From the IMG/VR virus record IMGVR_UViG_3300036766_000211, positions 1-34,223 of that record: a stretch of DNA of 34,223 bases; one strand, 5' to 3'. The position numbers and the translations under genes are program-made. The number at the start of each line of letters is the position of its first letter. Within the stretch, counting starts at the first letter, position 1. The notes below the pieces were generated by a model. That model ran no database searches. It saw nothing but the letters and a program-made list of their open reading frames with translations, and had not been told where the DNA came from. Source of the DNA: a virus. Below, one piece after another: positions 329 to 11,282 of this stretch.

Positions 329-1239
329 ATAATATCCATCAATTTTAACTTAGTTTCTGCATCAATAGATTCATCATCAGTTAAGGTTATGCTGGTATAT
401 CTTATAGATTTTCTTTCACTTGTTTTTGTCACACCAGTCTTAGCTCCTCTCATACGGAAATAACCGACTATCCATCCTTTATCTATAACAACTTTTTTAA
501 ACTTTAAAAAATTAATAAATGTCTCTATCTTAAACTGTACTTCTTTACGATTCTTGAAATACACTACTCTACCATTGGCAAGTTCATCTAAGTTCTCAGT
601 AACTCTACTCATCATAAAATCAGTAAACATTTCTGGAACTTCACTTCGTCTAAACATACTATCATCTGCTATTATGATTGCTTTGTCTAATATTGATTGT
701 AAATATGCAGACCATTGCTCTACTTTCATACGATTTGGTAATATATTTAATGCATTCATGCACTTCATAAGAAACTTACGATTATCATATAATTCTTCTG
801 TAGTAAGTTCTAGTCGTCCACCTTCAACGTCTATGAACCACACGGAAAAATCACCAGAAATTTTAGTTACTGAATTGATAATTGGCATGGCAGAAGTAGC
901 AGAGATTCCGTAACGTCGTGTTCTACACAACTTAGCATTACAGAATGAGCATAGCGGTTCTTCATTACATTGATAATAATACTCTTTTTTATCTAATGAT
1001 TTTTGAATAACTCCTATTTCTCTTGCTGGTAGCGGTTCTGAATATAGTTCTTGATTATATTTTTCTATTTTCTTAATCCATTCTGTAGGATATGCTTTTT
1101 TAGCATAAACACCTAAATTAAATAATGATGTATTTCTACTACCTGTAGGAAATTTTATAAGGCTAAGTGCCTGTAAGCAGGGAGGTCCATCTTTGATGAT
1201 AGATTGCTCGTAATCAATGCCCTTCTCCTGCTCTGTGAC
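325..1239 (-). CDS. Primase-polymerase C-terminal part, reached by -1 frameshift
   Basis: Reading the minus strand in the -1 frame from 1239 gives 304 codons without a stop. It begins VTEQEKGIDYEQ and contains DGPPCLQAL, GSRNTSLFNLGVYAKKAYP and PLCSFCNAKLCRTRRYGI. These are hallmarks I associate with the C-terminal domain of phage AEP primases, including a cluster of four Cys that may bind zinc or an Fe-S cluster. There is no ribosome binding site or ATG at the start of this segment, so it is not an independent gene. With the zero-frame part it makes a 499-residue protein (1823 to 325). A homopolymer sequencing error could give the same picture. Confidence 0.8.
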   Translation of the reverse strand, partial: VTEQEKGIDYEQSIIKDGPPCLQALSLIKFPTGSRNTSLFNLGVYAKKAYPTEWIKKIEKYNQELYSEPLPAREIGVIQKSLDKKEYYYQCNEEPLCSFCNAKLCRTRRYGISATSAMPIINSVTKISGDFSVWFIDVEGGRLELTTEELYDNRKFLMKCMNALNILPNRMKVEQWSAYLQSILDKAIIIADDSMFRRSEVPEMFTDFMMSRVTENLDELANGRVVYFKNRKEVQFKIETFINFLKFKKVVIDKGWIVGYFRMRGAKTGVTKTSERKSIRYTSITLTDDESIDAETKLKLMDII

Positions 1240-1823
1240 TTTTTTAAGGATACCCTATTAAGTGTAGCATATTCAATAAATTGATCTAAGTTTAATTCTT
1301 CTATTTTTCCATTATTGAGTATGATACATTTTCTAGTATCTCCAAAATAAGGCATATTTAGCCAATTGCCAACATCTCCTCGTGCTGTAATAACCATGTC
1401 TTGTTTAGGAAAAATCTCTTTATTACCTAATCCAAGATGAGCACTTGTACTCATTAAGTATTCTCTAACATCTCTTGCCGGTACTGGTTCATCTAAAAAT
1501 ACATAAAGATGAGCACCGCCTGATTTACTTTTACATACTACAAATGGAGAATCTTTTATTTTTATTAAAAGTTCCATATAATTTGTAGGATAAACATCAT
1601 AATCAATAGCTGCCCAATGACAATAATTTTCTTCATTAATAGGAACTATCCCTATTCCCATTATTCCAGCCAAATGAGAATACCACTTTTCTATTGTTAC
1701 ATCTTCTCTTAATGTTATTGCTTTACCAATTACTTTATTACCTTCTTTCTTATCAATAACAAATACACCATGTGCTGATTTACGACCTTGAAATAAAATA
1801 GACATTGCATCTGCATTGTCCAA
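1155..1823 (-). CDS. Primase-polymerase (AEP superfamily), zero-frame product
   Basis: The 222-residue frame holds an archaeo-eukaryotic-type primase (PrimPol) catalytic domain. Visible motifs are HWAAIDYDVYP with two acidic metal ligands near residues 74 and 76, SGGAHLYVF with the motif II His near 105, and NWLNMPYFGDTR near 153-164. The start is TTG at 1823, supported by GGGAGG eight bases upstream; the first ATG would be seven codons later. At 1239-1245 the frame crosses A AAA AAG. Staying in frame adds a 27-residue tail that does not look conserved (rich in Ser and Arg) and stops at 1155, while a -1 shift continues into the primase C-terminal domain. Family knowledge: relatives carry both domains in one chain. 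Likely role is priming or synthesis at the phage replication fork. Confidence 0.85.
   Translation of the reverse strand: MDNADAMSILFQGRKSAHGVFVIDKKEGNKVIGKAITLREDVTIEKWYSHLAGIMGIGIVPINEENYCHWAAIDYDVYPTNYMELLIKIKDSPFVVCKSKSGGAHLYVFLDEPVPARDVREYLMSTSAHLGLGNKEIFPKQDMVITARGDVGNWLNMPYFGDTRKCIILNNGKIEELNLDQFIEYATLNRVSLKKSQSRRRALITSNLSSKMDLPAYRHLAL
1239..1245 (-). promoter_or_regulatory. Slippery heptamer A AAA AAG for -1 ribosomal frameshifting
   Basis: On the minus strand the codons read TTA AAA AAG TCA, so the heptamer A AAA AAG is in the exact phase required for -1 slippage; the same heptamer is used in E. coli dnaX. AGGG lies seven bases upstream (1253-1256), a Shine-Dalgarno-like element in the place where dnaX has its stimulator. 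I see no strong stem just downstream; the only candidates are short pairings such as ATTG with CAAT. The coding sense of the -1 frame starts exactly here. Confidence 0.65.
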
Positions 1824-8652: not shown

Positions 8653-9108
8653 ATGATGCCTCACGAGAATTTTTGGTTTCAGGTTGTACTCGGATTGCAT
8701 GGTGCCGACCTGCACCGTGCCGATCTGCGTGGTGCCAACTTACATGATGCCAACCTGTATGATGCCGATCTGCGTGGTGCTAATCTGCGTGATGCCGATC
8801 TGTGTGGTGCTAACCTGTGTGGTGCTAACCTGTGTGGTGCTAATCTGCGTGGTGCTGACCTGTGTGGTGCTAATCTGCGTGGTGCTGACCTGTGTGGTGC
8901 TCTAAACATTTTTTCGCTGGGCAATCCTGATGGATGGTTTGCCTTTGCTTGGCTAAGAGACAAACAGCTATCAATCCGCGTAGGGTGTCAAGAGAAACGT
9001 CTTGACGAGGCAAGGATCTACTGGTCAAACAAACCCAACCGTAGAGAAGTCTTGGCAGCGGTTGAGTATGCCTCAACAGTTGCTACTATCCGCGACTGGC
9101 CGGTCTAG
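8653..9108 (+). CDS. Pentapeptide-repeat protein with C-terminal phage domain (151 aa)
   Basis: Residues about 16-80 are thirteen tandem A(D/N)LxG-type pentapeptides, such as [10 protein letters not shown] and CGANL, followed by an imperfect one. These would form a right-handed quadrilateral beta-helix; several consecutive repeats place Cys at the same position, giving a cysteine ladder. Residues 90-151 ([20 protein letters not shown], then LDEARIYW and a REVLAAVEY helix) resemble a C-terminal domain common in phage proteins. ATG at 8653 or 8656 follows GGGAGCAAGG. The Leu and Gly codons (CTG, GGT) differ from the TTA-rich late genes. Some pentapeptide proteins bind DNA gyrase as DNA mimics, but this short one is not strongly acidic, so that role is open. 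Confidence 0.8.
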
Positions 9109-11200: not shown

Positions 11201-11282
11201 GCCGGAATGGTGGAACTGGCAGACACACGGGACTTAAAATCCTGCGGAGTAATCCATACGAGTTCAAGTCTCGTTTCCGGTA
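11201..11282 (+). tRNA. tRNA-Leu(UAA)
   Basis: A complete class II cloverleaf. The acceptor stem is GCCGGAA/TTCCGGT with discriminator A. The anticodon stem is CGGGA/TCCTG around CTTAAAA (anticodon TAA at 11235-11237). There is a GGA/TCC variable arm, and T stem ACGAG/CTCGT with loop TTCAAGT. The 3' CCA is not encoded. It decodes UUA, the dominant Leu codon of the late genes, so it probably offsets a host poor in this tRNA. Confidence 0.95.

Follow-up and report, generated by a model that had tools for sequence, protein, structure and literature searches.

A probable programmed −1 frameshift at an A AAA AAG heptamer in a phage primase gene

How is a primase made when the two halves of its gene lie in different reading frames? 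The question is raised by a viral DNA of 34,223 nucleotides (IMG/VR record IMGVR_UViG_3300036766_000211), the whole of which was analysed and is referred to here as the window. Near one end of the window, the minus strand encodes the catalytic and C-terminal parts of an AEP primase in two frames. The offset could be a signal read by the ribosome, a feature of gene organization or transcription, or an error in the sequence.

Results

The frame-0 ORF (1823-1155, minus strand) encodes 222 amino acids from a TTG start with GGGAGG upstream, and consists of the AEP primase catalytic domain followed by 27 out-of-frame residues beyond the slip site, with a stop at 1157-1155. The −1 frame, bounded upstream by a stop at 1257-1255, is open from 1254 to 328 on the same strand, ends in a TGA at 327-325 and carries the C-terminal part, such that frames 0 and −1 overlap by 97 nt (1254-1158). 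In a profile search against PHROG 21866, a primase family, the N part matches profile positions 2-216 and the C part matches positions 221-530 (E 2e-34). Because the two halves match consecutive parts of the same profile, the locus is a single primase gene over two frames. The initial annotation had assigned the N and C parts to different frames, which the ORFs and profile matches confirm, and had named a 222-aa core and a 499-aa fusion as the encoded products; the reading frames give both lengths, with 499 aa for the joined N and C parts. At the junction, the −1 frame encodes KKVTEQEK and frame 0 encodes KKSQSRRR. The first ATG, GTG or TTG codon of the −1 frame is at position 930, inside a Cys motif, which leaves the complete C domain with no conventional start codon of its own. 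A small ORF follows on the minus strand (328-143), its ATG (328-326) overlapping the TGA of the −1 frame as ATGA.

The N part is assigned to AEP-TOTE in Pfam (E 2.3e-12), and its residues D74, D76 and S101 are invariant, and H105 nearly so, in one alignment of the family (A5), corresponding to the catalytic Asp pair and the S..H motif. In the C part, read in the −1 frame, C286, C295 and C300 of the Cys motif are invariant in a second alignment (A1); similarity of this region to PriCT-1 is weak, below the cut-off, in the relative L105. AlphaFold modeling of the 222-aa ORF predicts an AEP domain with a pLDDT of 89, with values of 51-66 past residue 200. A Foldseek search with this model returns the CAPP Prim-Pol domain 7nqe first (E 1e-9, TM ~0.65), and a sequence search likewise places CAPP Prim-Pol nearest to the short product among solved structures (E 1.3e-15). 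In a model of an intact relative, the position equivalent to the slip site falls after the AEP domain and before a helical C-terminal domain. The confident AEP model, together with the CAPP matches in fold and sequence, suggests that the short product would be an essentially complete AEP catalytic domain resembling a stand-alone Prim-Pol core. The CAPP domain has been solved alone, including in a primer initiation complex (PDB 7nqd/7nqe/7nqf/7p9j). The CAPP and human PrimPol cores prime without an ancillary domain; the human core does so without the zinc finger, and disruption of the zinc finger results in a more efficient polymerase (reviewed in PMC10345425). The CAPP core is likewise followed by a PriCT-like domain with conserved cysteines (PMC8211822).

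A slippery heptamer of the X_XXY_YYZ type, A AAA AAG (1245-1239, minus strand), lies inside the ORF overlap in the correct −1 phase (TTA AAA AAG, 1247-1239), at codons 193-195 in the inter-domain linker. The initial annotation had the frame switch falling exactly at this heptamer; this is a probable placement inside the wider interval 1254-1158 that the stops allow. A −1-phase A AAA AAG occurs three times in the 8627 codons of the phage (~1% per 32-codon overlap), and 4 of 138 linkers of relatives (~3%) have a phase-correct copy. In E. coli, A_AAA_AAG is more shift-prone than the other heptamers compared, and it is the dnaX site (PMC5009743).

Two Shine-Dalgarno-like elements lie near the heptamer. 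AGGG (1255-1252, minus strand), which ends 7 nt upstream of it, had been put forward as a Shine-Dalgarno stimulator. The element is present as described but weak: its best anti-SD pairing, −4.0 kcal/mol, is equalled or exceeded at 19% of coding positions and is not significant, and AGGG was therefore dropped as a strong upstream stimulator. An upstream SD acts as a major element in dnaX and, by estimate, in 56% of IS elements; it is not universal, and its spacing in dnaX is similar to the 7 nt found here. The spacing given in a review for −1 stimulation by an upstream SD is 9-14 nt (PMC5009743). The other element, AGGAG (1229-1225), stands 6 nt before an in-frame AUU of the −1 frame (1218-1216), and this 1229-1216 stretch of the minus strand is a candidate internal start for the C part. 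An AGGAG-type element at such a spacing precedes only one of 303 other AUU codons. The AUU is at the domain boundary, and the AGGAG sits within the stem of an RNA structure.

This structure, which the initial annotation had missed, is a branched stem-loop (1233-1175, minus strand) that begins after a 5-nt spacer (TCACA) 3' of the heptamer, at the near end of the ~5-9 nt range for a downstream structure. RNA folding gives it an MFE of −24.5 kcal/mol, with a closing stem (1233-1221/1185-1175) and two inner stems (1220-1215/1210-1206 and 1203-1198/1191-1186). Dinucleotide shuffling of the region gives a z-score of −3.1, with none of 200 shuffles as stable, and a shorter cut of the post-heptamer sequence gives −2.4. 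Under a synonymous null, in which the −1-frame amino acids are fixed and codons are drawn from the phage's own usage, the z-score is −5.5 and none of 3000 recodings is as stable; when codon order is shuffled, 0.8% are. The stem-loop window ranks second among 807 coding windows from 16 coding stretches, and at 11 of 5679 codon positions (~0.2%) the sequence 4-9 nt further on opens a stem of ≥6 bp within a fold that is just as stable. Among the 35 −1-phase slippery heptamers of the phage, A AAA AAG at 1245-1239 has the most stable downstream fold. All of these values describe one sequence. The stem-loop stretch is also built from codons atypical for the phage: GC3 of the first 22 codons is 0.55, compared with 0.10-0.25 per gene, and 0.05% of windows are as high.

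Several other features of the window were recorded. Under the synonymous null, no fold in the genome is stronger than one at 2791-2708 (minus strand; −31.1 kcal/mol, z −6.4), which covers codons 9-36 of a Pam3_Gp34-like gene (2815-2072) located upstream of the primase at a distance of two ORFs. This fold contains a G GGT TTT heptamer at 2759, where a −1 shift would meet a TGA at once. On the plus strand, a 151-aa ORF (8653-9108) contains the 84-nt window whose predicted mRNA fold is the most stable of those tested (−35.5 kcal/mol), and it matches three stretches of PHROG 7713, suggesting internal repeats, and a tRNA-Leu gene (anticodon TAA; 11201-11282, plus strand) lies directly upstream of the structural genes.

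Relatives of the primase are consistently encoded in one frame. A tblastn search of 50,697 phage records found 24 primases, and for 21 of these a single place in the record accounts for most of the query; twelve of the phage-record primases were examined, and all eleven with annotation are single genes. Both halves lie in the same frame in 181 distinct relatives (viral contigs, genome contigs and phage records) and in five later phages, as judged from the best tblastn piece per half, a check that small splits outside the two halves could escape. Five further loci (L004, L269 and L271-L273) match the N part only and carry no frame information. In one scan, relatives were ranked only on their N half, a ranking that does not count against split genes. 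No second genome with a split primase was found among the 181 distinct relatives and the five later ones, and no conserved split was seen in the relatives, among them the N-half-ranked set and phages reached via TerL and capsid. An exact DNA-pattern scan found no record near-identical to the phage.

The closest relative with a primase, L105, is 48% identical to the joined protein over its full length. A TerL-related phage (G001; TerL 60%) has an intact 506-aa primase that is 48% identical to the joined protein, with ~49% identity in the C part and ~46% in the N part, and the primases of two further phages, G009 (capsid 71%) and G010, are intact. The other main genes of the window that have relatives in G001 are intact; since none of the main conserved genes apart from the primase is broken, general poor assembly was rejected. 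In the homologous stretch of L105 and L357, the two closest relatives with a primase, there is no A6 heptamer, and folding (z −0.3 and −1.5) and GC3 are ordinary. The absence of all three features from both relatives indicates that the heptamer, the hairpin and the codon bias accompany the frame offset. Uninterrupted relatives lacking the slippery site, which the initial annotation had expected to tell against a frameshift, therefore exist, but the closest is only 48% identical, and their existence establishes no more than that the split is derived. Since all relatives with both halves are single-frame, these comparisons most simply suggest that the ancestral primase was in one frame and that the split arose in this genome or is peculiar to it. 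Given 48% identity to the closest primase relative, the split may be of recent origin in this lineage.

In two related groups of relatives (L048, L170-L172 and L174), the primase linker keeps A AAA AAG in the −1 phase, where a −1 shift would meet a TAG two codons on, as in E. coli dnaX, leaving the AEP core; neither the folding nor the codon conservation of these linkers stands out. An E. coli-dnaX-like reverse arrangement was considered for L002, L003, L048 and L171, which have A AAA AAG in the linker, and was rejected as the folds are not exceptional. Synonymous conservation at the linker of L048 and L171 is one among several similar runs, and no claim is made from it.

Discussion

The locus is probably a dnaX/IS911-type programmed −1 frameshift that yields a catalytic core and a full-length primase. 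The initial annotation had reached the same reading through AGGG, an argument that proved weak; it is the stem-loop downstream of the heptamer that makes programmed frameshifting the best-supported reading. Ribosomes on TTA AAA AAG would be delayed by the stem-loop 5 nt downstream, and in a fraction of them tRNA-Lys would re-pair one base back (AAA AAA). The slipped ribosomes would read on through GTC ACA GAG into the C-terminal domain to make the 499-aa primase, and those that do not slip would end at 1157-1155 and release the 222-aa protein. The sequence shows the two frames, the heptamer, the non-random hairpin, the predicted fold of the short product and the single-frame state of relatives; slippage in the host, its efficiency and the use of both products are inferred, and the two products may be made in a fixed ratio, as the initial annotation proposed. 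The single genome holds confidence to this level; the weak upstream SD and a frame 0 that stays open for 27 codons past the slip also count against frameshifting.

A different account of the same offset is that an ordinary single-frame primase has suffered an assembly or consensus error, or that this individual has recently lost one base in the A run. Single-frame coding in all relatives with both halves and the homopolymer at the site fit this account, as does the similar conservation of the C and N parts, which would follow from an offset that is very recent or not real. The same heptamer would, moreover, remain after the loss of one base from a longer A run. Without a programmed signal, a phase-correct heptamer would fall in the overlap in ~1% of cases by genome frequency or ~3% by the linkers of relatives, perhaps rising to at least 10% if indels favour A runs. 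An error or indel leaves unexplained the stem-loop 5 nt downstream, its synonymous z-score and the jump in GC3. The hairpin would have to be a coincidence, one that L105 and L357, without hairpin and GC3 jump, do not share, and no other main gene is broken. A heptamer, a hairpin and a codon bias alongside the frame offset are hard to explain by sequencing error, and an error or recent indel is accordingly rated unlikely, though not negligible. By a rough weighing, frameshifting would come out ahead even under a prior strongly favouring an indel.

Two further accounts accept the offset as real and are less likely still. The primase may be split, with the C part initiated separately at the AUU (1218-1216) once ribosomes on the first ORF open the stem holding AGGAG, and with frameshifting minor or absent. 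The good and rare AGGAG-AUU spacing and the domain-boundary position of the AUU agree with this, and in one IS element a single SD serves both initiation and frameshift stimulation (PMC5009743). AUU is a very weak start, however, the SD is buried in the stem and the heptamer would be a coincidence, making a split primase improbable; AUU initiation and frameshifting could nonetheless act together. Least probable, to the point of being barely credible, is transcriptional slippage on the A run that restores the frame in some mRNAs: a homopolymer does stand at the junction, but the run is only A6, whereas known slippage runs exceed 7 (PMC3711429), and slippage of this kind does not require the hairpin.

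For programmed frameshifting, the closest parallel is E. coli dnaX (gamma/tau), an unrelated gene, likewise of DNA replication, in which A AAA AAG is also followed by a stem-loop and which gives products with and without a C-terminal region. In dnaX, frame 0 gives the long product and the upstream SD is a major stimulator, whereas in the phage primase the long product requires the slip and the upstream SD is weak. The IS911/IS3-family OrfA-OrfB pair resembles the phage primase in that a −1 shift gives the long fusion, and its site is of the A AAA AAG class. The IS element with the dual-use SD is IS911, its start is AUU, and AGGAG-AUU of the phage primase might double as an initiation signal in the same way. 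The IS911/IS3 gene is a transposase, unlike the phage gene, and no sign of a transposase or IS element came up incidentally at the primase locus. A reversed arrangement, relative to E. coli, has been suggested for a few bacterial dnaX genes (PMC5009743). The lambda G/GT tail assembly chaperone and capsid frameshifts also produce short and long forms in phages, but from structural genes rather than as the core and full length of a replication enzyme. CAPP differs in being a CRISPR-associated protein with an N-terminal TPR region, and the text searched describes no frameshift for it. No frameshifted phage primase was found in the literature searched; the mechanism is known, and the gene is new for that mechanism.

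If real, the frameshift would extend to a phage replication enzyme a mechanism that in phages is mostly described from tail and capsid genes, and it would share its heptamer and layout with dnaX and IS elements. It would also offer a testable case of a frameshift cassette arising from a single-frame ancestor, the closest primase relatives being without offset, heptamer and hairpin. Tentatively, a dnaX-like switch may have evolved in this phage replicative primase to set the ratio of a stand-alone, polymerase-competent AEP core to the full-length enzyme, other sampled members of the family being single-frame; the lysine-rich linker in part of the family would then provide a ready source of switches of this kind. 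Such a switch, if real, predicts a role for a core-only primase.
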